A stretch of 64,000 bases of DNA, taken from Bacteroidales bacterium. Its GTDB lineage: Bacteria; Bacteroidota; Bacteroidia; Bacteroidales; WCHB1-69. The notes under the pieces were generated by a model. That model did no database searches and was not told the DNA's origin. It saw nothing but the letters and a program-made list of their open reading frames with translations. Each line of letters opens with the position of its first letter. Positions within the stretch are counted from its first letter, which is position 1. The position numbers and the translations under genes were made by a program. Location of the stretch: assembly GCA_017525245.1 (NCBI GenBank), contig JAFXTE010000011.1:62001-126000 (forward strand), written 5' to 3'. Below are positions 49,506 through 64,000 of the stretch, in pieces.

Positions 49506-50000
49506 TTAGTCGGTGAATGATTTGAGTTTCTCGCGTATGCGTACCAGCCGTACGCTGACATTATCAACCGAGATGCCGAGGATGGCGGCAATCTCGTCGT
49601 AGGGCAGGTCTTCGAGCCAAAGCAGAATCAGTGCGCGGTCGAAAGGATGCAGTCGTGCGATGCGCTTGTGGAGGCGGCTGGCGGCGGGACAGGCCTCCTC
49701 ATCAGCGAAAAGGTCGATGTCCATTTCCAAGGGCATGCAGTCGGGACGGCGGCGGTTGCGCTTGTCGAAGGTAACGCAGGTGTTCAGGGCCACGCGATAG
49801 ACCCACGTTTTGGCTGAGCTGCGCCCTTCGAAACTGTCGATGCCCTGCCAGAGGCGTATCAGCACCTCTTGGGCGAGGTCGTCCGCTTCCTGGCGGTCGT
49901 TAGCGAAGAGGTAGCACACAGAGTAGATGGTCTGCCGCTGCTCCTGCACTAACCGCTCGAAGTCGCGTTCTTTCTGTTCTTTGTCTTTTTTCTGCTTCAT
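49506..50000 (-). CDS. ECF sigma factor, copy A
   Basis: The 164-residue group 4 sigma-70 factor has the same region 2 and region 4 motifs as copy B. Visible differences are V/M at the VQEQ start, S/G in IDSFEG, F/L in VTFDK, D/A in FADEE, and S/T in GISVDN. It is the first gene of a run: sigma, partner, M16 peptidase, sigma, partner. The DNA before both sigma starts is nearly identical (CTTTCAGACATTG and TTTTGACTACGAAGG on the plus strand), so both probably share a promoter type. Confidence 0.92.
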   Translation of the reverse strand: MKQKKDKEQKERDFERLVQEQRQTIYSVCYLFANDRQEADDLAQEVLIRLWQGIDSFEGRSSAKTWVYRVALNTCVTFDKRNRRRPDCMPLEMDIDLFADEEACPAASRLHKRIARLHPFDRALILLWLEDLPYDEIAAILGISVDNVSVRLVRIREKLKSFTD

Positions 50001-50091
50001 CTTTCAGACATTGTTTTCCTTTTGACTACGAAGGGGGATGAAAAACTACACCTTAAACCTCAAATTTGTTATTATTTTGGGGAACGTATTA

Positions 50092-51450
50092 TCATTTCAA
50101 TCCTGTCAGGTTTATACGATAGGTCAGGTCGTCGTTGCTGTCGTGCTGGAAAAACATTAGCATATAGATAGGCAAATAGACTAATCGGGCTTTTGCATGA
50201 ACGTTATCCTGACAGAAGACAAACGCCTTCGGAATGGCATATTCGTCATTATCCATAATATTGCTCAGTGCGCGATGCCGTTCGAAATCCTTTCCCGATT
50301 TCACCTCAATGGGCAGTGCTTCACCCTGATGTTCTACCACAAAGTCGAGCTCTCCTTGCTTTTTGCTGTTAAAATAGAACAAGTCATGGTCGATAGCGAA
50401 ACCGTGGGCGTATAGTTCCTGGGCGACGAGGTTCTCGAAAGCTGCTCCATAGTTGACATTCATGTTGCTCAACAGACGGACTTGAATGTCACCTCCATAC
50501 ATGGCTGCCAATAGTCCCACGTCGTTGAGGAACAGCTTGAAGAGGTTGCGTTGCTTGTTCAGCAGCAAAGGCATCTGCGGCGCTTCCACATTATAAGCCG
50601 GAATGGCAACGCCCGCATCCTTCAGCCAAAGGAAACCGCTCTCATAGCGGGCAAAACGAGCTTTCTCTTTCAACTCCTTCAGGATGAAGCGTTTGTTCTT
50701 GGCGTTCAATTCCGAGGGAATCAGATTATAGATTTCTTCAATTTGAAGCTTACGCCCCTTGTCATACTTCGTGATGTCACGTTTGTAGGTCCGGATGATG
50801 TCGCGTTGCTCGTTGAGGACATTCCTTAAATTATTGGTGTCCAAATATTTTTGCACAGCAGCGGGCATTCCGCCAACAATCATATAGAGCGTGACCACTT
50901 CCAGCATTTTTTGATGGACAAACTCATCGACTGGGATAAGTCCGTCATAACAGTCTTTAAGATGACCGATTATTTCATCGCTGATTCCCAAGGCCTCGGT
51001 AAATTCCTCCAAATCAAGTGGATACATCTCCAATTCTCCCATATATCCCACTGGAACACTACGTAAGTCTTTGAGTTCAACCCCTAAAAGGGAACCGCTC
51101 ATGACATATTGGTAGCTTCCCTCTTCCACGAGAAACTTGATGGCTGTCACGATTTCATCGCATTCCTGAATCTCGTCAAAGAAAATAAGGGTTTTGCCAG
51201 GAACCAGTTTCCTGCGTGTGAAAGCCGAGATGCGCATCAGCAATTCCTTAGCACCCTGCGGACGACGGAACATCTCCACAGCATTAGGTTGCTCAATGAA
51301 ATTGATTTCAACCATGTGTTCAAATAGCTCTTTGCCGATTGTCCGAATGGCAAAGGTCTTACCAACCTGTCTTGCTCCAGTCACCAACAATGCGCGTTTG
51401 TCGTTGGAAAAAAAGTCTCTCAAGAAATGATATGCTTTTCTATTAATCAT
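50092..51450 (-). CDS. AAA_14/DUF4143 ATP-binding protein
   Basis: The 452-residue protein starts at MINRKAYHFLRDFF; an upstream frame would include the -7 box at 51472-51479. LLVTGARQVGKTFAI is the Walker A region, TLIFFDEIQECDEIV Walker B, and YVMSGSLLGVELK sensor 1. The DUF4143 domain follows (FEEFTEALGIS-like start, LVAQELYAHGF, ELDFVVEHQGEALPIEVKSGKDF with nuclease-like ELDFVV and EVKSG residues). Its role in Bacteroidota is unknown. A decayed relative with the same domain pair is at 42848. Confidence 0.88.
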   Translation of the reverse strand: MINRKAYHFLRDFFSNDKRALLVTGARQVGKTFAIRTIGKELFEHMVEINFIEQPNAVEMFRRPQGAKELLMRISAFTRRKLVPGKTLIFFDEIQECDEIVTAIKFLVEEGSYQYVMSGSLLGVELKDLRSVPVGYMGELEMYPLDLEEFTEALGISDEIIGHLKDCYDGLIPVDEFVHQKMLEVVTLYMIVGGMPAAVQKYLDTNNLRNVLNEQRDIIRTYKRDITKYDKGRKLQIEEIYNLIPSELNAKNKRFILKELKEKARFARYESGFLWLKDAGVAIPAYNVEAPQMPLLLNKQRNLFKLFLNDVGLLAAMYGGDIQVRLLSNMNVNYGAAFENLVAQELYAHGFAIDHDLFYFNSKKQGELDFVVEHQGEALPIEVKSGKDFERHRALSNIMDNDEYAIPKAFVFCQDNVHAKARLVYLPIYMLMFFQHDSNDDLTYRINLTGLK

Positions 51451-51471
51451 AACACTCAGTATTTCAGACTG

Positions 51472-51479
51472 CAAAGATA
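51472..51479 (-). promoter_or_regulatory. -7 box TATCTTTG for the ATPase gene
   Basis: It is a TAnnTTTG match 21 bases before the chosen ATG at 51450. This rules out the in-frame ATG at 51492 as start. Confidence 0.6.
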
Positions 51480-51518
51480 ATATTTTTTTCATTATCCAAA
51501 AAAAACACTATCTATTTT

Positions 51519-51565
51519 TGACACTTTTCCAAGGTTAAATGCTGTCATTTCTGACACTTTTCCAA
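51519..51565. repeat. 14-base direct repeat upstream of the ATPase gene
   Basis: TGACACTTTTCCAA occurs at 51519-51532 and 51552-51565. It lies upstream of the ATPase -7 box and is a candidate operator pair. Confidence 0.7.
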
Positions 51566-51599
51566 TATTTGCCCACATCGCCCTGGGCGGAGATTGAAA

Positions 51600-52481
51600 T
51601 TAATACCTCGGATGGAACAACGCGATGTTCGTCCGTAAGTAATCTTGGTCCAGATGCGTGTAAATTTCAGTGGTGGTGATGCTTTCATGGCCGAGCATTT
51701 CTTGCACGGCGCGGAGGTCGGCGCCGCCTTCGATGAGGTGCGTGGCGAAGGAGTGCCGGAACGTGTGCGGACTCACCGTCTTGTCGATGCCTGCCGCCGC
51801 TACCCACTTCTTCACGAGCATGAAGACCATCTCGCGGGTGAGGTGCGCCCCCCTGCGGTTCAGGAAGACATAATCTTCCTCGCCCTTCTTGATTTTCAGC
51901 AGTTTACGTTTACCTTCAACATATTGGTTCACAGCATTTATGGCCGTTTTTCCGATGGGAATCAGCCGTTCTTTGTTGCCCTTGCCAACTACCTTGATGA
52001 AACCGTCGTCGAAGAAGAGGTTGGAGAGACGCAAGGTCACTAACTCGCTGACACGCAGCCCACAACCGTACATCACCTCCACCATGGCGCGGTTGCGATG
52101 GCCTTCCGGCGTGCTCAAGTCTATCACGTCCATGATGCTCTGGATTTCCTCAACGGTCAGCACGTCAGGGAGATGCATTCCGATTTTGGGCGCGTCCAAC
52201 AGCTCCGTCGGGTCGTCCTCACGCACGTTGGCATAGATGAGGTAGCGGTAGAAAGCCCGCATTCCGGAGACAATCCGTGCCTGCGACCGTGCGTTGAAAT
52301 CCGATTCGTATAGGTGTTTCAGAAACTTCTGTAACTCCTCGAAAGTGGCGTCGGCTATTTTGTCCTCGCCCAGAAAGTCCGCCAACAGCTGCACATCGTG
52401 CAAATAGGCCTCCACGCTCTTGGGTGAGAGGCCTTTTTCATAGACTAAATATTGCCGGAAACGGGCGATTTGCGCGTTCAT
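51600..52481 (-). CDS. xerD: Tyrosine recombinase XerD-like
   Basis: The 293-residue recombinase has the core-binding N-terminal domain (FRQYLVYEKGLSPKSVEAYLHDVQ) and the catalytic domain. The catalytic residues are Arg in GCGLRVSELVTLRLSN, Lys in the beta-hairpin GKGNKERLIPI, HxxR in SPHTFRHSFATHLIEGG, and the Tyr in TTTEIYTHLD. Length and position fit XerD, which with XerC resolves chromosome dimers at dif. The ATG overlaps the cinA stop by four bases (ATGA). Confidence 0.88.
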   Translation of the reverse strand: MNAQIARFRQYLVYEKGLSPKSVEAYLHDVQLLADFLGEDKIADATFEELQKFLKHLYESDFNARSQARIVSGMRAFYRYLIYANVREDDPTELLDAPKIGMHLPDVLTVEEIQSIMDVIDLSTPEGHRNRAMVEVMYGCGLRVSELVTLRLSNLFFDDGFIKVVGKGNKERLIPIGKTAINAVNQYVEGKRKLLKIKKGEEDYVFLNRRGAHLTREMVFMLVKKWVAAAGIDKTVSPHTFRHSFATHLIEGGADLRAVQEMLGHESITTTEIYTHLDQDYLRTNIALFHPRY

Positions 52482-53731
52482 CGGCGGAGATCTTTCTCGA
52501 TTTCAATGCGCAGCATGTTGAGCGCGGCATGGGCAGCCCGCTCGATAATCTGCTTCCGACCAGTGTGCTTGCCGAAATGGAACTCTTTGGTCGTCAATCG
52601 GGTAGGAGTAGCCACGGCTATCCAGACGGTACCGACAGGCTTTTCGGCCGTGCCGCCGTCGGGACCCGCGATGCCGGAGGTGGCCACGGCGTAATCGACA
52701 TCCAAGAGGTCCATCACGTTGAGGGCCATGTCGCTGACGACCGGCTCGCTCACCGCACCGCGTTTCTTGAGGTTGTCCTCCCGAACGTTGAGGATGTCGC
52801 GCTTCACCTGATTGCTGTAGGAGACCACGCTCCCTTGGAAATATTCGGAACTGCCTGGCACAGAGGTAATCAGGTGCGCGATGAAGCCGCCGGTGCAGCT
52901 TTCGGCGGTGGCCACGCGACGACCGCTCCCGCGCAGAAGCTTGCCAATGACCGCCTCCATCGGGATGTCCTCATCGGCGAAGGCTAACGAGCCCACCTCG
53001 GCTTTGAGCTTCTCAAACTGCTGGTTCAGAGAAGTTTGCAGTTCTTCGTTGTTATCACCCGTGGCGGTCAATCGCAAACGGATGATGCCGGGTTTCGGCA
53101 GGTAGGCCAGTTTAAAGTTCTCCGGCAGCTGCGCCTCGAAGTCGGTGAGCTGGTCGGAGAGGTTGCTCTCGCTGATGCCCGTGCATTGCAGCACCTTGTA
53201 GAGCACCGCGTGCTCGTGGTGGAAAATCTCCTGCAATCTCGGCAGAACCTCTTCACAGATAAGCTTTTCCATCTCGAACGGCACGCCGGGAAGGGCGACG
53301 AGGATCTTGCCGTCCTGCTCTATCCAGAGTCCCGGGGCGGTACCCAAGGTGTTTTTCAGTACGGTGCAGCCCGAAGGCACGTCGGCCTGGTGGCTGTTGG
53401 TCTCCGTGAGTTCCATCCCGCGGGCGGCGAAAATCTCGCGCACCCATTCCAAGGTCGGCTCGTCCACCACCAGTTCGCGGTGGAAGTAGTCGCAGATGAC
53501 CTTTTTGGTGATGTCGTCGCGGGTGGGTCCGAGTCCGCCGGTGACAATCAGCAAATTCGTTTTGGCAAATCCATTTTCGATGGCACTGCGAATAGCATTC
53601 TCGTCGTCGCCGATGGTGACGCATTCTGTCATTTCGATGCCCGCCAGGGCCATTTGCTGCCCGATGAAGGCGGCGTTGGTGTTGATGACTTGTCCTAAGA
53701 GGAGTTCGTCTCCGATGTTGATGAGGATCAT
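52478..53731 (-). CDS. cinA: CinA-family nicotinamide-nucleotide amidase
   Basis: The 417-residue protein has an N-terminal MoCF-like domain (ILINIGDELLLGQVINTNAAFIGQ, VTGGLGPTRDD) and a C-terminal CinA amidase domain (VATAESCTGGFIAHLIT, SGIAGPDGGTAEKPVGTVWIA). It recycles nicotinamide mononucleotide and may hydrolyse ADP-ribose. The two-domain form is usual in Bacteroidota. It overlaps xerD by four bases. Its -7 box TATCTTTG is at 53761-53768. Confidence 0.93.
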   Translation of the reverse strand: MILINIGDELLLGQVINTNAAFIGQQMALAGIEMTECVTIGDDENAIRSAIENGFAKTNLLIVTGGLGPTRDDITKKVICDYFHRELVVDEPTLEWVREIFAARGMELTETNSHQADVPSGCTVLKNTLGTAPGLWIEQDGKILVALPGVPFEMEKLICEEVLPRLQEIFHHEHAVLYKVLQCTGISESNLSDQLTDFEAQLPENFKLAYLPKPGIIRLRLTATGDNNEELQTSLNQQFEKLKAEVGSLAFADEDIPMEAVIGKLLRGSGRRVATAESCTGGFIAHLITSVPGSSEYFQGSVVSYSNQVKRDILNVREDNLKKRGAVSEPVVSDMALNVMDLLDVDYAVATSGIAGPDGGTAEKPVGTVWIAVATPTRLTTKEFHFGKHTGRKQIIERAAHAALNMLRIEIEKDLRR

Positions 53732-54073
53732 TGGTTATTTTTTCTGATTATTATTTTCTGCAAAGATACAATTTTTTCAACTATGGGAAACTTCTCGCTC
53801 TCAATGTTTCTGCTCGGGGACGGGTTAGGGTAAACGGAAAAAGCACCCTAACAAACAAAATCTTCCAAAATTTCAGACGGTCAATCCGATGCATCGCTAA
53901 ATACTGTTTTGTGCATTTCTTGCACTTTGCCACTTTCTTTCCGGAAACAGCAACTTTTCAATCGAAAAATGTCACTTTTATCATTTTGATATTTAACGAG
54001 TTAAATATAATTGGCTCTTGATTTGTTTGCTTTAATTTTGTAAATTTGCAGGCAACAACTTAAAAATTTAGAG
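53732..54073. other. Gene-free region with a hairpin and two promoters
   Basis: The region holds the cinA promoter on the left and a TAAATTTG -7 box at 54041-54048 pointing right, to the nuclease remnant. GTTAGGGT (53824-53831) and ACCCTAAC (53845-53852) form a perfect 8-base hairpin with no T-run. I see no gene in between. Confidence 0.55.
53761..53768 (-). promoter_or_regulatory. -7 box TATCTTTG for the cinA-xerD operon
   Basis: It is a TAnnTTTG match 29 bases before the cinA ATG. Confidence 0.6.
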
Positions 54074-54166
54074 ATGAAAAAGAACGAGGCTGAACTTGTG
54101 AAAATTGAATCTATCGACACGCTTTATCAAGATGCCTGTCGGATAATCGAAAATGCTCAAAGTTGA
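54074..54166 (+). pseudogene. N-terminal stub of a DUF1016 (YhcG-like) nuclease gene
   Basis: The 30 codons read MKKNEAELVKIESIDTLYQD and on to RIIENAQS, then TGA. I recognise the first helices of the DUF1016 N-terminal domain found before PDDEXK nuclease domains (about 340 residues in full). The sequence breaks off at 54160-54166, where the T9SS tail end begins in the opposite orientation. The promoter and start of the nuclease gene have been kept but the rest is gone. Confidence 0.7.
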
Positions 54167-54240
54167 TTTTCACGAGGTAGGTGCCGGAGGGATAGGGCGA
54201 GAGGTTAAGGCAAAGGATAAGGCAACAATCTTTCAGATGG
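54161..54240 (-). pseudogene. T9SS tail fragment, copy 1
   Basis: On the minus strand this codes LNLSPYPSGTYLVKINFE, the end part of a T9SS type A sorting tail, without a signal peptide or cargo domain. It stops at the junction with the DUF1016 stub. Compare copies 2 and 3 at 55039 and 58191. Confidence 0.7.
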
Positions 54241-54287
54241 ACCTTGATATAAATTCGCAAAAAATGCGAACTTTTGAACAAAAATAT

Positions 54288-54295
54288 TATTTTTG
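54288..54295 (+). promoter_or_regulatory. -7 box TATTTTTG for the HigBA-like pair
   Basis: It is a TAnnTTTG match 21 bases before the HigB ATG at 54317. Confidence 0.55.
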
Positions 54296-54316
54296 CACCT
54301 TGAAAAAAATGATGTG

Positions 54317-54630
54317 ATGGAGATAACATTCGAACAAGACTACCTTCGGGAATTATACTATGACGGCGAAGCCAGTGACAAACAACACCGTTACCAACCG
54401 AACATCGTGAAAAATATGTGCGCGTGGTGAACATCTTAGACTCTGTTGACAAAGCTGTTGATCTTTATAGATATCGAGCCCTCCGCTATGAGAAATTGGC
54501 GGGCGACAAGGCAGGACTGGAATCTGTGCGAGTAAATGACCAGTACAGGGTTGAGTTTAAAACAACCGCAGCGGGAGGCATCACCATTTGCAACATTACT
54601 GAATTGTCGAAACATTACAAAAAGAAATAA
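54317..54630 (+). pseudogene. higB: HigB-like toxin gene with a frameshift
   Basis: From the ATG at 54317 the first frame reads MEITFEQDYLRELYYDGEAS, then DKQHRYQPNIVKN, and stops at 54430. In the +1-shifted frame the protein continues VRVVNILDSVDKAVDLYRYR and ends SVRVNDQYRVEFKTT...ITICNITELSKHYKKK at 54630. Joined, they make a typical HigB RNA-cleaving toxin of about 105 residues. One base is missing in the A-run at 54410-54414. This is either a real null mutation or an assembly error. Confidence 0.85.
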
Positions 54631-54636
54631 AGGAGG
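54631..54636 (+). promoter_or_regulatory. Strong ribosome binding site AGGAGG before higA
   Basis: This match to the anti-Shine-Dalgarno is rare in this window, where most starts have no such site. Confidence 0.7.
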
Positions 54637-54643
54637 AAACAAT

Positions 54644-54955
54644 ATGGGAAACTTAGGATATGGGGCTTATCCCACACACCCGGGCGAGGTGCTGAAAGAC
54701 GAGATTGAAGAACGCGGCATCAGCCAGCGTCAATTGGCGGAGAGCATGGGATTGACCTATTCAGTGGTCAACGAAATTCTGAACGCCCGTCGCCCACTGA
54801 CGGCTAAAACGGCACTTATGTTTGAGGCGGCACTTGACGTGCCCGCCGATTCATTGATGTATCTCCAAACAAAATACAACATGCAAACTGCCCGAAAAGA
54901 CTCTTCCTTAATGGATGTATTAAAGGGCATAAGAAAGGTGGCGGCTATGCTATAA
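54644..54955 (+). CDS. higA: HigA-like antitoxin
   Basis: The 103-residue protein starts YGAYPTHPGEVLKDEIEERG and has a helix-turn-helix (GISQRQLAESMGLTYSVVNEILNARRP) of the Xre type. The C-terminal part (SLMDVLKGIRKVAAML) probably blocks the toxin. It begins 13 bases after the damaged higB and would neutralise its product and repress the pair. AGGAGG at 54631-54636, seven bases before the ATG, is a strong Shine-Dalgarno sequence, unlike most genes here, and hints at transfer from another source. Confidence 0.88.
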   Translation: MGNLGYGAYPTHPGEVLKDEIEERGISQRQLAESMGLTYSVVNEILNARRPLTAKTALMFEAALDVPADSLMYLQTKYNMQTARKDSSLMDVLKGIRKVAAML

Positions 54956-55038
54956 AGCAAAATTGTCACCACATGGAAAGCAATTACGGTCCCGCTCTGT
55001 TTTTCAGGGCGAGATTGTTGTTGCCCAACTCCTAACTG

Positions 55039-55173
55039 CTAACTCCTAACTATCTTCCTCACCACGCTCACCCCTCGCTCGAAGTTGATCTTCACGAGGT
55101 ACGTGCCGGAGGGATAGGGCGAGAGGTCGATCACCGGTAGGGACGTGCCGGCGGGCGAATCTACACCTGCCCG
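55039..55173 (-). pseudogene. T9SS tail fragment, copy 2, in frame after a stop
   Basis: Directly after the TAG of the T9SS protein at 55174, the same frame continues for 44 codons to another stop, with PVIDLSPYPSGTYLVKINFE then RGVSVVRKIVRS. So a second tail end follows the first, separated by one amber codon. Bases 55034-55109 match 58186-58261 at 74 of 76 positions. Confidence 0.75.
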
Positions 55174-57195
55174 CTACCGTTTCACCACAAACTTTATCGC
55201 TGTGCTGCCAACAGAGGTGCTCACGTGCGCGACGTATAGCCCCGAGGGGAGGTCGCGGACGGAGATCTCGGTGCGGCAGGAGGTGGCGGGCTGCAGGAAG
55301 AGCAGCTGGCCGGACTCGTTGGTGACAGCCACCATGCCGACGGGCAGCCCTTCGGGACTCTCGATGACCACGCGGTCGGTGGCGGGGTTGGGGTAGAGCC
55401 GGATTTCCGACAGCCGCTCGTCATATTGCGGCACTGCCGTGGAATCCACTGGATACGGCTCCAAGATGGACGGGTCGTACTTGTACGCGAACACAGCATG
55501 GCTGTTACCATGTTCAGTGAAATTAAGGGTGAGGTCATGCCCGAAAGACAAATCTTGGGTGGCAATTCTATCACATAAAATACCACCATTGTTATTCACA
55601 ATAGTTTTTAATGGTCTTACACTCGGATCGGCCGCATGATATATTGTATCCGCAGAGATAAACTGTCCGTCGGTGTTGAAATAAGCAAGCATACAACCTT
55701 GGCTAAAATCATACGTAAACTGACCAATTAAATGGTTGTTGATGACAGCAGGCTTCGCCTGGGGGAAAGCCGACGTGTGTAAACCTGTCGGTTGTCCAAG
55801 CTTCATGAATGAACCATTCTCTTTGTCAAACTTAACATAAAAACCAGTATGGGCATTAGTGGGTATCTGAAGAGAATTATTTTCGTTATCGAAATAGAAT
55901 AAAGGGTGGTCTCCTCCAGCGTCATCAGCACGTCCCAACATATAAACACCTACGTTGTCAACAAAATTATCAGACCATTCTGGTGTGTGATAAAAATTTA
56001 TGTTGGGGTCATTCTTTACGTATGCCTGGTTTGCCCAAATAATGTTTCCATCTGAAGAATACTTTAGAATAAACGGCAGTTTTTTTGCCAAACTTTGATC
56101 TGCTATTTCTGCAAAATGTGTATTGTCCCAAAAAACCCGCATCGGATACTGATTGTTTTCATCCGCTAAGTGCATGTCCATGATAACCCCAGAAACATAT
56201 AAGTTGTCCTGTTCGTCTATGCTCATACCACACAAAAAAGGTCGATAATATGGAATCAATGAATCATATAGCATAAAAGGTGCAAGACCTTCTGTATGAT
56301 CGATCATCAACTTCATCCAAGCCAGTTCCCAGTTAGGTGTGAACTTACAAATCATCATATTGTTAATCATCTTGTCATCGGGGTAGCTCCCCGGTAAATA
56401 GATTTGATAAGTCTTTGCAGGATCGCCGTCAACGATAATGGTAAAGGGCAGGGTGTCAGAACCACCATAAAAGGTGCTCATTGCAATAAAGGTATTGCCG
56501 TGACTGTCAACACATACAGGATTTGCTCCAGTTATTCGTCTGCTAAGTGGCAAATTAAGCAAAAAGCCGCCTAAACGTTCACGAGCAATGGTATGTACAA
56601 AATGATTTTCCAGTTTGTTCCCATCCAAGTCAAAGGTTGCAAAATAGCTGTAGTTGCCAGATGTATAAGGTGGATGATCAGTTCCCGAAGGATAGGAGAG
56701 TATGCACTGTTGGTCTATCAAGGTGTCAACAAACCACAAATAGGTCATGTTGCTTAGATGAAGACTGTATTCTCCTGCTATCGTGATTTTGTTATTTTGC
56801 AAAAACATGTCGTAAGGGAACCCATCATCAGACAAACTTTTTATGCTTCTGTGCCAAAGTAGATTCCCGAGGGAGTCAAACTTCGCCAAAACATTTCCCG
56901 AATGATTGTTTGCCACAATCATCGCATTATCTGAAAAATGTGAGGTGCCATTTTGGGCATAAAGAGTCGCACTTCCGCCGAAACTACCAAAAACGTATAT
57001 GTTTCCGTTATCATCAAATGCAGTCCGCACAACACGATTCGTTTCGTGGCTGCCAAGTTCCTCGCCCCCTGTCCAATAGTTCGCCCACTTCCACTCGCCC
57101 TGGGCGGAGGCGGAGAGAGCGGCCAGGAGGATAAGGAAGATGGGAACCAGCCGTTTAATGGCGAGATTGCGCAAGGGTAAGAGGTTGGTTTTCAT
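55174..57195 (-). CDS. Large secreted protein with T9SS tail
   Basis: The 673-residue protein has a long signal peptide (hydrophobic LVPIFLILLAALSASAQ). The body has repeats of the form FDDNGNIYVFGSFGG, FDSLGNLLWHRSI, FDLDGNKLENHF and YSSDGNIIWANQ, as in SBBP or propeller-like proteins of cell-surface adhesins. The C-terminal tail (IRLYPNPATDRVVIESPEGL ... SGLYVAHVSTSVGSTAIKFVVKR) is a T9SS type A signal. Its function is unknown. It is immediately followed, in frame, by a second tail end (copy 2). Confidence 0.82.
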   Translation of the reverse strand: MKTNLLPLRNLAIKRLVPIFLILLAALSASAQGEWKWANYWTGGEELGSHETNRVVRTAFDDNGNIYVFGSFGGSATLYAQNGTSHFSDNAMIVANNHSGNVLAKFDSLGNLLWHRSIKSLSDDGFPYDMFLQNNKITIAGEYSLHLSNMTYLWFVDTLIDQQCILSYPSGTDHPPYTSGNYSYFATFDLDGNKLENHFVHTIARERLGGFLLNLPLSRRITGANPVCVDSHGNTFIAMSTFYGGSDTLPFTIIVDGDPAKTYQIYLPGSYPDDKMINNMMICKFTPNWELAWMKLMIDHTEGLAPFMLYDSLIPYYRPFLCGMSIDEQDNLYVSGVIMDMHLADENNQYPMRVFWDNTHFAEIADQSLAKKLPFILKYSSDGNIIWANQAYVKNDPNINFYHTPEWSDNFVDNVGVYMLGRADDAGGDHPLFYFDNENNSLQIPTNAHTGFYVKFDKENGSFMKLGQPTGLHTSAFPQAKPAVINNHLIGQFTYDFSQGCMLAYFNTDGQFISADTIYHAADPSVRPLKTIVNNNGGILCDRIATQDLSFGHDLTLNFTEHGNSHAVFAYKYDPSILEPYPVDSTAVPQYDERLSEIRLYPNPATDRVVIESPEGLPVGMVAVTNESGQLLFLQPATSCRTEISVRDLPSGLYVAHVSTSVGSTAIKFVVKR

Positions 57196-57339
57196 ATTGT
57201 TATAATTTTAATTGGTTTAACATTCAGATGATAATAATCCCTTATGTCCTTTTAGTCGCACAAAAGGACGATTTTGTTACATTGAATGTGAAATTTTTTT
57301 GCCATCCTCGTAATCGTTTGGCAATCATCGGTTTATTAT

Positions 57340-57618
57340 TCAATGCTTAATCGTAATAAGCGAGACATCCAAAGCGGCGGAAATCTTTGCCAATGTTGCC
57401 AGCGTGAAATTGTGTCCGCCTCCCACCCAGTGCGATACAGCGGCCTCGGATGTGCCCACCATCTTTGCAAACTCCTTTTGTGACAACCCGCGACTTTGCA
57501 GCAAATTGTCTATCCAGTCAGCGATTTCGTATGACCATTCCACCTGCAGCTTTAAGGCTTTGGGTGTTTCGTCAAGTGTCTGCTTGAAAAGCTGTTCTGT
57601 TTCTCTCGAATGTTTCAT
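57340..57618 (-). CDS. Xre-family antitoxin-like regulator
   Basis: The 92-residue protein has a helix-turn-helix (LSQKEFAKMVGTSEAAVSHWVGGGHNFTLATLAKISAALD) typical of Xre DNA-binding proteins. It overlaps the upstream 159-residue gene by four bases, so the two form a pair in which the presumed toxin is first and the regulator second, as in HigBA. It would repress the shared promoter. Confidence 0.8.
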   Translation of the reverse strand: MKHSRETEQLFKQTLDETPKALKLQVEWSYEIADWIDNLLQSRGLSQKEFAKMVGTSEAAVSHWVGGGHNFTLATLAKISAALDVSLITIKH

Positions 57619-58094
57619 ATATCAAATTCTTTGTCGTCTACACCAGAAAGGGATGCCTCCTCGATGGTGATCTCCCCTTTCGCCTCTGCTAACCTCAAGA
57701 GGTCATCTAATTTTTGTAGTTGAATCACATATCCGTTCAGTTCCGAATCCTCTTCATACGTTTTGGTGGTCTTAGGGCCGCCGTTTCCTACAATTAGCAC
57801 GCTGTCGGATAGACGCAGACAATACAGTCTTAACTTACTGCTCTGTATTGGTAGTGCCGCCACTCTGTCACGCATTTTCCCTTCAGGTCTGAAATACCTG
57901 TCAAGAAACCCCATAGCGTTCATCATGTGTTGCAAAGCGTTCAGGATTTTCTGCAAATCGGGCTGGAGAGTTGCATTCTCGTTGCCTTTAACGATGAATT
58001 TCTGGAATTCTGTGAAACTGTCGCCCTCAAAGCAGATGGTGAACAGCCCGGCCTTTTCTGTTTGTCTGACGGATTGGATAGTTGCTTTAGTCAT
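57615..58094 (-). CDS. Possible toxin of a HigBA-like pair
   Basis: The 159-residue protein has no signal peptide. The core KLRLYCLRLSDSVLIVGNGG followed by PKTTKTYEEDSELNGYVIQLQKLDDLL recalls proteins of RelE-like folds. It is longer than normal HigB toxins (about 90-110 residues) and I cannot see the usual catalytic residues with confidence. Its position before an Xre regulator with a four-base overlap is the main reason for the call. The -7 box TATATTTG is at 58121-58128. Confidence 0.5.
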   Translation of the reverse strand: MTKATIQSVRQTEKAGLFTICFEGDSFTEFQKFIVKGNENATLQPDLQKILNALQHMMNAMGFLDRYFRPEGKMRDRVAALPIQSSKLRLYCLRLSDSVLIVGNGGPKTTKTYEEDSELNGYVIQLQKLDDLLRLAEAKGEITIEEASLSGVDDKEFDI

Positions 58095-58120
58095 AATTGA
58101 TATGGTTTAGTTTCAGACGG

Positions 58121-58128
58121 CAAATATA
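58121..58128 (-). promoter_or_regulatory. -7 box TATATTTG for the second toxin-antitoxin-like pair
   Basis: It is a TAnnTTTG match 26 bases before the ATG at 58094. Confidence 0.55.
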
Positions 58129-58190
58129 CATTTTTTCTGAGGATATTATCTCGAAAGATAATTTTTCTTCAAAAGAAAGGATTCAAACTG

Positions 58191-58330
58191 CTAACTCCTC
58201 ACTATCTTCCTCACCACGCTCACCCCTCGCTCGAAGTTGATCTTCACGAGGTAGGTGCCGGCGGGGACGAAGGGCTTAGTGAACTCAGGATTGTGGCACA
58301 AGGCAAATCCCGCATTGGAATTATTAGCAC
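58191..58330 (-). pseudogene. T9SS tail fragment, copy 3
   Basis: The minus strand codes CHNPEFTKPFVPAGTYLVKI then NFERGVSVVRKIVRS and a TAG. The end is the same as copy 2, with two differences over 76 bases, but the sequence before it (ANNSNAGFAL) is unrelated. No cargo domain or signal peptide is present. Confidence 0.75.
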
Positions 58331-58388
58331 TACCAATAATAGAGACACTTTTATTAAAAAGCCGTAATCCCATGAAATGGAAAAAATG

Positions 58389-58396
58389 TATTTTTG
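58389..58396 (+). promoter_or_regulatory. -7 box TATTTTTG, 4 bases before an ATG
   Basis: It is a TAnnTTTG match with four bases (58397-58400) before the ATG at 58401, so the transcript may be leaderless. An in-frame ATG at 58377 lies before the box and is not likely used. Confidence 0.6.
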
Positions 58397-58400
58397 CGCT

Positions 58401-59171
58401 ATGAAGTTCCACAATCGAAATAGGGTGCTGCCATTAACATTGACCGTCGCGTTCTGCGCAATGCTTTTTGTTGTTTCCGCACAAAAACGGCAAACACCGC
58501 CCTCCGCTGTGCTCGTCCATAAGCAGTGTAACCGTTGTAATACATACGACACTCTTTGCCACTTTCGGTATGGAGACATTGTCTTGACGGAGGATTCCAT
58601 CACTTTCAACAGTATGAATTGTCTTTATGATTATGATGATAAGGATACAAAATACAGTTTCTTACATGATACTTATTTGATTTTTTCTTTTCCGAATGGA
58701 AAGAAATATACTATGGAGCTGTTTGATTATTTTTCCAGTTTTGTACCCCAATATGTGCCGATAATCTATAGACGCGACTGGGGCAATACATTGCCTATTC
58801 ATGCGAAGTTCGGGAATGATTGGAGCAAGTCGCTGAGGAAATTCGTCAAAAAATGGAATTCCTATAACAATCGTGAAGAAGTCGTACTGAATATTATCGA
58901 GTGCGGAACGAATTGTTCCCGCATGATCCAGGTCCAAGGGGAGGACACGATTTTTGTGGCGTCACACTACGATACTGATATTGATTTGCAGTTTGATCCT
59001 GATTTCGATTTCGTCGAAATCGTGGACGGTGATACGATCCTCGCCACGAGAGACTGGCCTCGACGACACAAAAAAGGCCCCGACGAATTTCTCCGAAGGG
59101 GTCTCTGTGGCAAAGTATCAACTTTCCCCGTTTTTATTCCCACTCGATCGTTGCGGGCGGTTTCGAGCTGA
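58401..59171 (+). CDS. Secreted protein of unknown function, 3' end antisense to guaA
   Basis: The 256-residue protein has a signal peptide ending near FVVSAQ. The mature part has cysteines in a [11 protein letters not shown] cluster near residue 45 and beta-rich segments ([21 protein letters not shown]). The last 35 residues, from [10 protein letters not shown] on, are coded by the guaA terminator and the end of guaA read in reverse, with a 38-base overlap. So the native end is probably before about 59065 and the present stop is reached by read-through. Function unknown. Confidence 0.55.
59070..59103 (-). terminator. guaA terminator
   Basis: On the minus strand a GACCCC...GGGGCC stem (59103-59098 with 59081-59076) with an inner AT-rich part is followed by six T. 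It lies 31 bases beyond the guaA stop. Confidence 0.8.
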
Positions 59172-60654
59172 TGTCATAGACCACGCGGTTGACACCGCGG
59201 ACTTTGTTGATGATGTCGTTGGAGACCTTGGCCAAAAACTCGTAGGGCAGGTGCGCCCAGTCGGCGGTCATGCCGTCAGTGGAGAGCACGGCACGCAGGG
59301 CCACGGCGTTCTCGTAGGTGCGCTCGTCACCCATCACGCCCACCGATTGAATCGGCAGCAGGATGGTGCCCGCCTGCCATACTTTGTCATATAAGTCGTT
59401 GTCCCACAATCCGTTGATGAAGATGGCATCGGCCTCTTGCAGGATCCGGACCTTCTCCGGGGTGATGTCGCCCAAGATGCGCACGCCCAAGCCGGGACCC
59501 GGGAACGGATGACGCTTGATGAGCCGCTCGGGAATGCCCAAGGCTGTGCCAATACGACGAACCTCATCCTTGAAGAGCAGCTTCAACGGCTCGATGATCT
59601 TCATGTTCATCTTCTCCGGCAGACCGCCCACGTTGTGGTGCGACTTGATGACCATGCCGGTGATGGAGAGTGATTCGATGCGGTCGGGATAGATGGTGCC
59701 CTGCGCCAACCACTTGATATTGTCCAACTTACGAGCCTCTTCCTCGAACACTTCGATGAAGCCGGCCCCGATGATCTTGCGCTTCTTCTCGGGATCGGTC
59801 ACGCCGCGAAGGGCGTCGTAGAAACGCTGGGAAGCGTTTACGCCTTTGATGTTGAGTCCCAAGGTTTTGTACTGCTCCAGCACGGAGGTGAACTCGTCTT
59901 TGCGCAACAAGCCGTTATCCACGAAGATGCAGTTGAGCTGCTTGCCGATGGCCTTGTTGAGCAATACGGCCGCCACGGTGGAATCGACACCGCCGGAAAG
60001 TCCGAGCACCACGTTGTCGTTGCCAATCTCGTTGCGGAGTTCGCGCACGGTGCTTTCGATGAACGATTCGGGGGTCCAGTCCTGCTTGCAGCCGCAAATG
60101 GTCTGCACAAAGTTGCGCAGGATGGTCGTGCCGTCGGTGGAGTGATAGACTTCAGGATGGAATTGCACCGCCCAAGTGGGTTCCTCCAGAATGTGGTAAG
60201 CCGCCACCTTCACCTCCTTGCTGCTGGCAATAATATGGTAGTTGTCAGGAAGTTGCAGGATAGTATCGCCGTGCGACATCCACACCTGGCTCTCTTGCGG
60301 AACGCCTTTCAGCAGCACATCGTCGGCCTCCACGAAGGCGAGGTGGGCGCGGCCGTATTCGCGGGTGGAGCTTGCCCCGACGACACCGCCGCCAACTTGC
60401 GCCAAGTACTGCGCACCGTAGCAGATGCCGAGCAGCGGATAGTGGCCTCTGATTTCCGACAAATCGGGTTTGAAGGCGTTGGCATCGTTCACCGAAAACG
60501 GGCTTCCGGAAAGGATAACCCCCTTGATGTCAGGGTCTCCAAACGGGAACTTGTTGTAAGGCAGGATTTCACAATAGGTGTTCAGCTCGCGGATGCGACG
60601 CGCGATGAGCTGCGTGTACTGGGAACCGAAGTCTAAAATAATGATTTTCTCCAT
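59134..60654 (-). CDS. guaA: GMP synthase (glutamine-hydrolysing)
   Basis: The 506-residue enzyme makes GMP from XMP. The class I glutaminase domain has LLGICYGAQ (nucleophile Cys78) and [10 protein letters not shown] (His and Glu). The ATP-pyrophosphatase domain has [13 protein letters not shown] near residue 220. The C-terminal dimerisation domain ends PPATIEWE, the usual C-terminus. The start at 60654 is chosen because a longer frame would cross the promoter. Its -7 box is at 60680-60687. Confidence 0.97.
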
Positions 60655-60679
60655 CGTTATATTTTCCAAAAATGAGGTG

Positions 60680-60687
60680 CAAAAATA
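60680..60687 (-). promoter_or_regulatory. -7 box TATTTTTG for guaA
   Basis: It is a TAnnTTTG match 25 bases before the guaA ATG. It abuts the T-run of the preceding terminator. Confidence 0.6.
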
Positions 60688-60688
60688 C

Positions 60689-60720
60689 AAAAAAAGGCGG
60701 TGCAATTTGTAAGCACCGCC
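60689..60720 (-). terminator. Terminator of M16 copy B, abutting the guaA promoter
   Basis: A perfect 8-base stem (60713-60720 with 60696-60703) is followed on the minus strand by seven T. It lies 22 bases beyond the M16 stop and one base from the guaA -7 box. Confidence 0.9.
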
Positions 60721-60741
60721 TAATTTTCTTAGAATTGACTA

Positions 60742-63576
60742 TTAATGTTGCATCGTGGTCGGATGCATGTCAGCGCGGGTGTAGATTTCGGGTTTGAAGT
60801 ATTTCTTCATGAACTCGACCATTTCTTTCTTAGTGACCGAATTGACAATATTATCGTATTCGGAAGGATTGACAATAGGATCGTCTTGGGTGACCTTTCC
60901 GCTGATGAAGCTGAGCCAGAAGCGGTTGGTTTGGATGTTCTTGGCGCGGGTGCTGAGCATCTGCTTCTTCACCAGTTCCATCGTTTTCTTATCCGGACCT
61001 TTGGCTTTGAAGTCGTTGAGAATCTTCAAGCTGGCATCGGCGAGCTTGTCGGTTTTCACAGGATCGCAACCCAGAAGAATCATCAAGGTCATCTCAGGGT
61101 GAGGGAGTTTGCTGGCGCCCATCTGCACCATCGGGGAATAGACATCGCCCATTTTTTCGCGCACGATGCGCACAAATTGGATGTCCAAAGCCTCACCGAT
61201 CATGTCGGCGATGATGGAGTTGCGGTAATTCCAGTCAATCGGGTTGGTGATATACATGCCCATCCAACCTTGTTCCTCAGTACCGGCATAAACGGTTTGC
61301 GTGGTGGCCTTGTCAGGACGCGGTTTCAAGACGCTGAGGTTGAATTTTTCTTTGTTTTTCGGATCGGTCTTCATTGAACCGAGATAGAGTTCCACGAATT
61401 CCTTCATTTCCTTTTCGTCGTAGTTGCCCACGAAGAAGAAGTTGAAATCGGCGGGATTGGAGAAACGCTCTTTGTAAATTTCAACGGCGCGATCGAAGTT
61501 CGCTTGGCTCAGATATTCGTCATCAAAGGAAAACATCTGTTTCATGTAAGGATCGTAGTTATAGGCTGCTTCCAGGAATTTGCCCAAATACTTGTACATC
61601 GGCTGTGCGGTGATCATCTTGAGCTGCTCTTTCGTTTCCTGCATCACCAATTCGAAAGCGTTCGGGTCGACACGCGGGTTGGTGAAGAAAGCATTGAGAT
61701 ACTGGAAGAAGAACTCCAAGTCCTTCGGAGAAGATGAGCCAGAGAAACCTTCGCTTAAGAGATTGATGTCTGGAGAAACACCCACGTTTTTACCTTTCAT
61801 CTTCTTCATCAAGGAATTGTAATCAATATTAGCGATACCGCCACGGTCGATGATTTCAGCGGCGAAATCGGCGGAAGCAAGATCCTTCACACCATAAAGT
61901 GATTTACCGCCCTTACTGCTGGCGCTGAACAGGATTTCATCGTTCTTATAGTCGGTTTTCTTCAGATAGACGGTGATACCATTGGAGAGTGTCCACTTTT
62001 CGGCACCCACAGCCTCGATTTTCTCCACAGAGGTGATTTTGCCGGGTTTCAGAGATCCCTTTTCCAAAATTTCCTGATCCTTGTAAGTGTCAACGTATGG
62101 TTTAACGTTTGCTAACGATTTGTCTTTCAGGATGGAAAGAATTTCATCCTTGGACGGAACTTTCACACCGTCTTTTTCGGGAGCGGTGACGATGGCCACC
62201 ATATTGTCTTCCGTGACCCAATCCTTGGCCAATGCGTTGACTTCAGCCAAAGTGATGCCTTCGATCAGCTTCTTGGCGTAGGTGTTCTCACGTTTTGCAC
62301 CCGGGATGGGGTCTTGACGCAGGAAGTTGTTGATGTATTGGCTGGCGAAACGGGCGGATTCAGTCTTATCGACCTCCTTGGCTGCCTTGTCATAATTCTC
62401 TAAAAGTTCCTCTTTGGCACGGTCAAGTTCGGTTTGCAGGAAACCATGTTTCAGCACGCGGTAGTCCTCTTGCAGGATCACACGCAATGCCTCAGGAATG
62501 CGGTTCTCCTTGGCCATGGCTTCCATGGCATACGCATCGGTATTTCCAATGAAATCGCCATAACCGCCACTAGCACCCAAGAACGGGCATTTCGGATCTT
62601 GCGTCATTTCTGAAAAACGGGCATCCAACATGGTGTTGTAGAGATCAATGCAAAGTTGCTGACGGAAATCACCGATCGTCTTCATCGGGGTGTGTTTGTG
62701 CTTGCGGATGAGCATCACTTGGCTACCCGTTGCTTCCTTATCGGTACAGACAGCCACGAGCGGCTCCTTATTGGCACCAATGCCGTAAATCTCTTTCTTG
62801 CGAGGGTTCTGCTTGGCGGGGATGTTGCCGAACATCGTCTTGATCTTGTCTTCCACAACTTTCACGTCAATGTCACCGACCACGATAACGGCCTGCAAAT
62901 CAGGACGGTACCAATCATGATAGAAATCCTTGATCACTTGGTAATCAAAAGTTTGCAGAATGTCAAGTTTACCGATGGGCATACGATCGGCATAACGGGA
63001 GTCCTTCATGAGGATAGGCCAGTACTCCTTGCGCATACGATCGTCGGCACCGAGACCGAGGCGGTATTCCTCGATGATGACACCGCGCTCTTCGTCAATC
63101 TCCTTGTTGTCATAAAGCAGACCGGCGGCCCAGCCACGGAGAATCTTAAGGCCGAGGTCGATGTTGTTAGGATCATCAAGCGGCATGGGGATCATATAGA
63201 CCGTCTCGTCAAAACTGGTGTAAGCGTTGAGGTCGGCGCCGAACACCACACCCTTGCTGCGCAGGTGGTCAACCACGCTGTTGCTCGGGAAACCTTCGAT
63301 ACCGTTGAAGGCCATGTGCTCGGTGAAGTGCGCCAAACCTTGTTGGTTGTCGTTCTCCTGGTTGGAGCCGGCGTTCACGGCGAGACGGAACTCCACACGG
63401 TCCTTCGGATAAGAGTTTTTACGAATGTAGTAGGTCAAGCCGTTGTCCAACTTGCCAATGGTCACATTAGGATCCGCTTTGATGGGATCGTTCAGATTCA
63501 GGTCGCCTTTCTGCTGCTGTGCGAAAACGGTCAACGCACACGCCAAGGCCATCAAAAACAAAAATACTTTTTTCAT
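60742..63576 (-). CDS. Secreted M16 peptidase, copy B
   Basis: The 944-residue zinc peptidase has a signal peptide (MKKVFLFLMALACALTVFAQ) and the zinc motif HFTEH (His83, Glu86, His87) with EERGVIIEEYRLG. The second M16 half is as in copy A (46031), with which it aligns over the whole length, differing by scattered substitutions and two extra residues near the N-terminus. Unlike copy A it is not flanked by ECF sigma genes. It has its own promoter (TATCTTTG at 63673-63680) and terminator. Probably periplasmic; substrates unknown. Confidence 0.92.
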   Translation of the reverse strand: MKKVFLFLMALACALTVFAQQQKGDLNLNDPIKADPNVTIGKLDNGLTYYIRKNSYPKDRVEFRLAVNAGSNQENDNQQGLAHFTEHMAFNGIEGFPSNSVVDHLRSKGVVFGADLNAYTSFDETVYMIPMPLDDPNNIDLGLKILRGWAAGLLYDNKEIDEERGVIIEEYRLGLGADDRMRKEYWPILMKDSRYADRMPIGKLDILQTFDYQVIKDFYHDWYRPDLQAVIVVGDIDVKVVEDKIKTMFGNIPAKQNPRKKEIYGIGANKEPLVAVCTDKEATGSQVMLIRKHKHTPMKTIGDFRQQLCIDLYNTMLDARFSEMTQDPKCPFLGASGGYGDFIGNTDAYAMEAMAKENRIPEALRVILQEDYRVLKHGFLQTELDRAKEELLENYDKAAKEVDKTESARFASQYINNFLRQDPIPGAKRENTYAKKLIEGITLAEVNALAKDWVTEDNMVAIVTAPEKDGVKVPSKDEILSILKDKSLANVKPYVDTYKDQEILEKGSLKPGKITSVEKIEAVGAEKWTLSNGITVYLKKTDYKNDEILFSASSKGGKSLYGVKDLASADFAAEIIDRGGIANIDYNSLMKKMKGKNVGVSPDINLLSEGFSGSSSPKDLEFFFQYLNAFFTNPRVDPNAFELVMQETKEQLKMITAQPMYKYLGKFLEAAYNYDPYMKQMFSFDDEYLSQANFDRAVEIYKERFSNPADFNFFFVGNYDEKEMKEFVELYLGSMKTDPKNKEKFNLSVLKPRPDKATTQTVYAGTEEQGWMGMYITNPIDWNYRNSIIADMIGEALDIQFVRIVREKMGDVYSPMVQMGASKLPHPEMTLMILLGCDPVKTDKLADASLKILNDFKAKGPDKKTMELVKKQMLSTRAKNIQTNRFWLSFISGKVTQDDPIVNPSEYDNIVNSVTKKEMVEFMKKYFKPEIYTRADMHPTTMQH

Positions 63577-63672
63577 AAATGTTTGTTTTATAAATAATTA
63601 TAGTTTATCCTTTGACGATTTTCTTTTTAGACGCAAAAATTGCAGAATAACTACAAAATTTTAAATCGGCGG

Positions 63673-63680
63673 CAAAGATA
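63673..63680 (-). promoter_or_regulatory. -7 box TATCTTTG for M16 copy B
   Basis: It is a TAnnTTTG match with a leader of about 96 bases to the M16 ATG. Confidence 0.5.
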
Positions 63681-63735
63681 CTATTTTTTAAGCAATAGCA
63701 ATATAGAGGTAATTTTCAAAAGTACAATAGTTTAA

Positions 63736-63771
63736 GTTGAAATCTGAAACTTGAAACCTGAAACCTGAAAC
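63736..63771. repeat. CTGAAAC octamer repeats before purE
   Basis: Units of 7-8 bases (TTGAAAT, CTGAAACT, TGAAACC, TGAAACC, TGAAAC) stand end to end, ending 21 bases before the purE -7 box. Confidence 0.75.
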
Positions 63772-63792
63772 AAAGGCATCGGGAATTTTTAT

Positions 63793-63800
63793 TACTTTTG
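63793..63800 (+). promoter_or_regulatory. -7 box TACTTTTG for purE
   Basis: It is a TAnnTTTG match 23 bases before the purE ATG. Confidence 0.55.
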
Positions 63801-63823
63801 CCACCGAATTTAAAACAAATAAC

Positions 63824-64000
63824 ATGCAACCATTAGTCAGTATCATCATGGGCAGCACCTCCGACCTTCCGGTGATGGAGGCCGCCTGCAAATTTTTTGA
63901 CAGTCAGGAAATTCCGTTTGAAATGTTGGCTTTGTCGGCGCACCGCACGCCCGATGAGGTGGCCGAATACGCCAAAAACGCCCATCAGCGTGGCATCAAG
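63824..64000 (+). CDS. purE: N5-carboxyaminoimidazole ribonucleotide mutase, N-terminal part
   Basis: The first 59 codons are in the window. VSIIMGSTSDLPVMEAACKF and LSAHRTPDEVAEYAKNA are the PurE signature with the MGSxSD substrate site and the catalytic His in SAHR. The enzyme acts in purine synthesis, which also fits guaA nearby on the opposite strand. The end of the gene is outside the window. Confidence 0.95.
   Translation, partial: MQPLVSIIMGSTSDLPVMEAACKFFDSQEIPFEMLALSAHRTPDEVAEYAKNAHQRGIK

Follow-up and report, generated by a model that had tools for sequence, protein, structure and literature searches.

Cargo-less sorting tails and probable module exchange in a genus-wide family of predicted T9SS proteins from Bacteroidales

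Introduction

A single locus of a Bacteroidales bacterium carries three near-identical 3' ends of T9SS genes, one of them in frame behind the amber stop of a complete T9SS gene, and the question is how such tails came to lie there without cargo. The stretch analyzed, here called the window, is 64,000 nucleotides long (G000:C97:62001-126000) and belongs to an assembly, G000, of 3.68 Mb in 111 contigs. The first-pass annotation read the copies as a sign that the 3' ends of T9SS genes are recombination targets through which unrelated cargo genes exchange tails, or as debris of such exchange. It is proposed here that the tails very probably represent the 3' ends of one genus-wide T9SS family, in which recombination at shared ends would reassort propeller bodies and C-terminal sorting domains (CTDs).

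Results and Discussion

All three tail copies lie on the minus strand and each was verified in the sequence (Table 1). Copies 2 and 3 are as alike as had been claimed (55034-55109 versus 58186-58261, 74 of 76 bases), and the repeat reaches 80 nt at 96% identity (55034-55113 versus 58186-58265); with an E value of 5e-32 in a search of its own genome, chance is excluded. Copy 1, reported at 54161-54240, is indeed a tail, but the match covers only 54157-54205 and breaks off after KINFE. The sequence before copy 3 had been called unrelated and turned out to be a scrap of family body: the 33 bp directly upstream (58264-58296) are 88% identical to the body of a paralogue on contig C20, 43 bp upstream are 84% identical to another family body (E 4e-7), and the frame of copy 3 reads FALCHNPEFTKPFV/PAGTYLVKINFE, its C20 counterpart being FALYHNPEFTQPFVP.

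Table 1. Features of the variable locus (window positions)
Feature	Position	Strand	Remark
Gene that we take to be cinA-like, left edge of variable locus	52478..53731	-	Same neighbour in G009, G013
5' remnant of DUF1016/YhcG-nuclease gene (MKKNEAEL...)	54074..54158	+	348 aa in G026 and G013
Copy 1, V-tail fragment without cargo that breaks off after KINFE	54157..54205	-	In G009 complete to stop
HigB-like/HigA-like toxin-antitoxin module, between copies 1 and 2	54418..54955	+	Profile matches
Copy 2, remnant of earlier V-type CTD	55039..55161	-	In frame behind window gene stop
S-type CTD, present tail of window T9SS gene	55174..55458	-	TIGR04183 37.9 bits, cut-off 23
Predicted T9SS gene, 673 aa	55174..57195	-	Signal peptide, beta-propeller-like body, S CTD
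5' shared stretch (signal peptide end and QGEWKWANYW), probable right-hand crossover region	57062..57117	-	46 bp at 93% with C20
HTH gene with a 159-aa gene, candidate PDC-M64 defence pair	57340..58094	-	PADLOC
Copy 3, V-tail end fused to short family body remnant	58191..58300	-	Deletion scar
Presumably guaA-like (GMP synthase) gene, right edge of variable locus	59134..60654	-	93.8% to G009 over 59068-61000

A fourth copy in the same genome (C20:8174-8247) lies inside an intact 700-aa T9SS gene and is its true 3' end. The body of this protein is paralogous to that of the window T9SS protein (37% amino acid identity, residues 2-607); by body, only these two proteins match in the genome, the other 14 matches being to the C-terminal part of other T9SS proteins. 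Tail exchange would have the 76-base element join many unrelated cargo genes; the genome search gave a single intact owner, a paralogue. For 49 of the 53 genome matches to the repeat the hit was weak (E 0.011 or more) and nearly all of these are confined to its first 18-22 bases, a dispersed simple repeat of the TAACTGCTAACTCC type; no intact unrelated cargo with the element was found in this genome or at the loci scanned among 40 genomes of the genus. For this element the copies are the 3' ends of one duplicated gene family, an outcome that the first-pass annotation had itself named as contrary to its reading. Rfam gave no match at window positions 50000-64000. The coding end of the tail (window 55020-55052) runs into a dispersed, partly tandem 14-base repeat, AGTTAGGAGTTAGC, and other family members terminate in other simple repeats (GATGAATG, AATGTAGAATGCAG and AATTAAG types), suggesting that the last codons and the stop derive from different intergenic repeats.

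The body is present in 29 of 60 genomes searched, nearly all from the same genus. An AlphaFold prediction (15 sequences, mean pLDDT 75) gives an all-beta body, then a low-confidence linker at 583-596 and a CTD that is poorly predicted. Its closest structural match is CylK, a beta-propeller-containing enzyme, with an E value of 1.5e-13 but a TM score of only 0.44 and an rmsd of 6.4, and SBBP beta-propeller repeats are detected in the body below the Pfam cut-off; together these make a beta-propeller fold probable, though unproven. At the C-terminus, TIGR04183 scores 37.9 bits for the window gene, 27.0 for the C20 gene and 36.8 for a V-tail gene of genome G026, all over the curated cut-off of 23, by which the family members are predicted T9SS type A sorting domain proteins; their C-termini read FVVKR, VVRKIVRS and similar. 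Tandem pairs or triples of family members occur at G026:C4, G026:C93, G004:C15, G004:C45, G004:C60 and G011:C40. In other genomes several members break off where a contig ends, which a repeat, or variation within the sampled population, would lead one to expect.

Copy 2 does stand in frame 3' of the TAG of the 673-aa T9SS protein, as had been stated. It is 96% identical to positions 175-297 of a V CTD of G026, and the V CTD is intact and used as their own CTD by near-orthologues of the window gene in G009, G026 and G013 (66-72% amino acid identity). The S CTD that now ends the window gene is 93-94% identical at the DNA level in G012, G019, G025 and G026:C4. Relative to G009, the window is 97.8% identical over 54155-55161, has no counterpart for 55162-55456 and is 80.7% identical over 55457-57301. 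The same order of S CTD, stop and V remnant is found in G012:C84 (97% DNA identity to the window gene) and after two other bodies, at G019:C58 and G012:C12. On these alignments copy 2 is a former tail, in front of which the window gene carries another CTD and a stop, and the suggestion that such copies might be debris of exchange holds for it: its V CTD survives intact in near-orthologues, and the gene before it is a mosaic. The first-pass annotation had also considered that readthrough of the stop could join the V remnant to the window protein and so swap or extend its sorting tail. The remnant is in frame at all four S-stop-V loci, as readthrough would require; however, a shared origin of the junction leads one to expect this without readthrough, the stop is TAG at two loci (G000 and G012:C12) and TGA at the other two (G012:C84 and G019:C58), the 44-codon remnant covers just the second half of a CTD, and 6 of its 44 residues differ between the window and G012. 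Amber suppression is not borne out by these differing stops, and readthrough of any kind is most improbable.

Among the 86 CTD genes of this genome with downstream sequence, only the window gene has a clear, co-directional old tail behind its stop; 13 of the 86 show some downstream match at E 0.05. Two candidates, C95:12302 and C36:1843, were rejected, as the part of the C52:37594 frame that they match is well past its CTD match; the remaining matches are short or run antisense, a convergent CTD pair on C96 being among the latter.

The window gene shares its parts with two different relatives. Compared with G012:C84 it is 93-100% identical at 55251-57050 and 82-83% at 55131-55250, and at most about half identical outside, left of 55070 and right of 57111. 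Compared with G009, identity is 92-98% on the left flank and 65-95% over the body, and on the right flank (57111-57290) it runs 80, 98 and 88% from one 60-base window to the next. These profiles place the probable crossovers within the V tail and close to the signal-peptide/QGEWKW stretch, where the similarity to G012 stops (57062-57117), and the signal peptide is of the locus type (G009-like) and unlike that of G012. On these profiles the window gene itself is a mosaic. A 76-bp signal-peptide stretch gives 46 matches in 23 of the 40 genus genomes. Family signal-peptide DNA also heads non-family proteins at L230:1829-2754 (G019:C39, 96%) and L118:1546-3885 (G019:C58, 86%), so that the 5' end may be common to other cargo too.

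The comparison was extended to 74 family ORFs, of which 9 without a stop and 5 without a recognizable boundary between body and CTD were dropped, leaving 60 from 24 genomes; one assembly per species was used, and all are probably MAGs. Across 1472 pairs, each with at least 600 aligned body bases, identity of body and of CTD correlate weakly (r 0.23). In 90 pairs the CTD DNA is at least 85% identical and the body below 70%, 12 of these being within one genome (for example, body 58.3% and CTD 99.3% in G004), and in 36 of the 69 pairs with bodies at least 72% identical the CTD falls below 65%; a body of 52% goes with a CTD of 98% in one case, and a body of 94.7% with a CTD of 41.3% in another. 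On a tree of the 48 rows with long bodies, the CTD type (8 types, set by our own sequence patterns, one label pooling four unlike tails) changes at least 21 times, the possible minimum being 7, and 22 times after 17 weak branches are collapsed. The 21 changes are fewer than in all 1000 label shuffles (mean 28.3, minimum 23), indicating that CTD type still tracks body descent. An M-type CTD was found in 2 of the 40 genus genomes only, with 5 matches.

Exchange at matching loci is seen most clearly where the C20 locus is aligned with G002:C7: the two are 98% identical as far as the signal peptide, drop to 50-60% across the body and return to 92-99% once the body/CTD boundary is passed. In the four between-genome pairs with at least 250 matched bases in both flanks the bodies are 52.2, 54.7, 54.8 and 84.9% identical, and pairs matched on one flank include swapped bodies as well as five in which the body is 97-100% identical. 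If the genomes are MAGs, chimeric assembly could account for some junctions, though the arrangements recur in separate assemblies. Neisseria pilE/pilS vary their surface by gene conversion, in which a variable centre is exchanged between constant ends, and the C20 and G002:C7 pair is like them in the one respect of constant ends around a variable centre at one locus. No silent donor set or single expression locus like those of pilE/pilS is demonstrated; the 27 tail-only copies described below carry no donor body, and partial body copies exist, several ending at contig ends.

A more ordinary account would be the decay of paralogues, in which a T9SS gene was duplicated and survives as truncated 3' ends, their DNA identity being due to strong CTD conservation without recombination. 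That every copy belongs to one family, that copy 3 retains a body scrap and that a signal peptide is fused straight to the tail in G019:C39 (L230) all agree with it. However, the median third-position identity jumps at the CTD boundary, from 37% in the body to 64% in the CTD (266 V-V pairs with bodies below 70%), so that protein constraint alone is insufficient for the likeness of V tails, and constraint cannot be the source of the reverse discordance, a body of 94.7% with a CTD of 41%; bodies are, moreover, replaced at loci with matching flanks. Decay is contradicted for the family as a whole, for which we regard it as quite unlikely, and it is sufficient for copy 3 and possible for copy 1. 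Module exchange among family genes is strongly supported by the discordance. The first-pass reading of tail exchange stands in that gene ends appear to act as crossover regions, with the body exchanged besides the tail, and falls as regards unrelated cargo for the 76-base element.

For CTDs other than that of the window, tail sharing by apparently unrelated cargo is supported. The genome contains 92 CTDs (4186 pairs), and 27 pairs have CTD DNA at least 78% identical over at least 150 bp; both bodies are available for 16 of these, 11 with related bodies, as decay would have it, and 5 without a body match at E 1e-3. Between C67:13858 and C73:19666, the last 80 codons are 82-89% identical in DNA and the sequence before them 35-42%. 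A second group of T9SS CTDs with DNA common to unrelated bodies is seen on G000 contigs C67, C69, C73, C95, C100, C14 and C110, and in several of its pairs the last ~26 codons are the most similar part.

We propose the following course of events. Family members share DNA at two ends, the signal-peptide/QGEWKW stretch and the CTD, and the limits of exchange coincide with the signal peptide and with the low-confidence linker (583-596) that follows the predicted propeller. Homologous recombination, presumably between paralogues and after DNA uptake from related species, would replace the DNA between or beyond these ends, resulting in a reassortment of propellers and sorting domains. An S-type CTD with its own stop would have replaced the upstream part of a V CTD, leaving copy 2 behind; the whole allele (body and S CTD) would then have entered the window locus through crossing over within the V tail and close to the signal peptide. 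Copy 1 would be a tail whose cargo is gone, and copy 3 a family gene cut by deletion to a body scrap and a tail. Descent, mosaic structure and the discordance of body and CTD are read from the aligned sequences; the enzymes, the direction of each event and surface-protein diversification as the function are what we infer from them, no recombination having been observed directly.

The flanks of the locus are shared with related genomes, the cinA-like region being 92.9% identical to G009 over 52345-53738 and 93.8% to G013. Positions 53738-54158 are 96% identical to G009, after which 371 bp of G009 are missing from the window; these take in the end of the copy 1 tail and the end of the DUF1016 gene, whose G026 copy has DUF1016_N and YhcG_C (Pfam) and is PDC-S02 in PADLOC. 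Between copies 1 and 2, the HigA-like match is above the cut-off (TIGR02607, 64 bits) and the HigB-like match below it (PF05015, E 3e-5). The HigB-like toxin lies in two overlapping ORFs of different frames, as if broken (window 54293-54630). The pair beside copy 3 matches PDC-M64C (E 1.6e-23) and PDC-M64B (E 2.2e-39), and in G008:C5 the same pair again adjoins an orphan tail. Copies 1 and 3 are, on this evidence, remnants adjoining a HigBA-like and a candidate defence module, respectively.

Such tails are widespread. The V CTD gives 66 matches in 19 of the 40 genus genomes, and the V-tail loci scanned are either ends of same-family genes or tail-only fragments, the frames examined in the latter spanning 21-117 codons. 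At 79 loci, 27 copies (in 13 genomes) consist of the tail only and 38 V CTDs are full or cut by a contig end, one of the 38 being counted twice (L170/L232 overlap). An S-type stop precedes four of the tail-only copies, copy 3 and L230 are deletion scars, and in the other 21 the 400 bp upstream contain no family DNA; for those 21, simple deletion is not demonstrated.

Two co-oriented V tails enclose a cassette at eight loci: a HigBA-like module (window 54157-55161, L113:3382-4600), a PIN_3 pair (L239:686-1636, L160:4388-5516, L164:4221-5375), a Zeta toxin (L133:5065-6496), AbiEi/AbiEii (L147:4279-6168) or an unnamed gene (L121:2062-3280). Module names beyond those searched in Pfam or PADLOC, like the amino-acid ends of the S-stop-V loci, were read by eye. 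At AbiEii and PIN, the tail begins within ~10 bases of the toxin gene stop. The association of V tails with toxin-antitoxin and defence modules is a lead. Integrons hold small toxin-antitoxin cassettes between repeated segments, and the V tail might likewise be a landing site for small accessory cassettes (toxin-antitoxin, defence), the cargo-less tails being the duplicated site. The eight loci fit this, as do L116 and L117, which are empty at the locus filled by cassettes in L113, L121 and the window. Unlike an integron, however, the system has no integrase over the curated cut-off (TIGR02249) in any of the 40 genus genomes, sub-cut-off tyrosine-recombinase matches occurring in 39 of 40 genus and 13 of 14 control genomes; a single tail copy, when folded as DNA, gave no significant hairpin (z -1.0, 31 of 200 shuffles folding equally well); and the 5' junctions of tail-only copies vary from position 61 to 232 of the 297-base CTD, which is unlike a fixed site. 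Integron-like site-specific recombination was rejected on the integrase and hairpin results, although the cassette-between-tails pattern still calls for an explanation, and we consider a landing site unlikely. A broader version, in which the propeller body is exchanged between constant DNA ends and the conserved 3' end doubles as an insertion point for toxin-antitoxin and defence cassettes, is doubtful though worth entertaining; if true, secretion tails would anchor both surface variation and defence islands in this Bacteroidales genus.

Recombination at shared family ends, the reading we prefer, has its closest precedents, as far as the excerpted accounts go, in the KLIKK proteases of Tannerella forsythia (PMC4404884) and the surface-protein rearrangements of Porphyromonas gingivalis (PMC5266723). 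The KLIKK proteases are different secreted proteins of one genome with a nearly identical T9SS CTD, as in the second CTD group here (not the V tail); in contrast to what that account describes, we see several CTD types reassorted with bodies across the genus, remnants of old tails, and bodies swapped where loci match, and the family C-termini lack KLIKK. In P. gingivalis, gingipains and other surface proteins undergo domain rearrangement and allelic exchange, with variants incongruent with strain phylogeny, and so resemble the present family in that T9SS proteins diversify through module recombination; the variable parts there are adhesin domains and alleles, whereas CTD replacement with the old tail behind a stop is absent from the excerpted description (PMC5266723). 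New here are the old tail kept behind a new stop, the bodies replaced between constant ends where loci match, and the cargo-less tails spread beside toxin-antitoxin modules; no description of this arrangement was found in the open-access papers searched, a scope outside which most subscription journals fall.

The case would document in sequence how sorting domains and bodies of T9SS proteins are replaced, the leftover being preserved along with both partners, suggesting that the DNA ends of secreted-protein genes can act as crossover regions. Crossovers at the ends would let a Bacteroidales lineage alter the exposed part of a surface protein with its export signal kept. With T9SS cargo, CTD phylogenies and calls of orthology need caution, as they can be misleading.

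A mobile vehicle for the tail was considered and rejected: an exact match to the tail core is absent from viral contigs, and one to a 128-base stretch from plasmids and phages. In a collection of 84,980 species the tail core has 27 matching stretches, all titled uncultured Bacteroidales or Bacteroidetes, and their sources include several from reindeer, goat abomasum and yak omasum.
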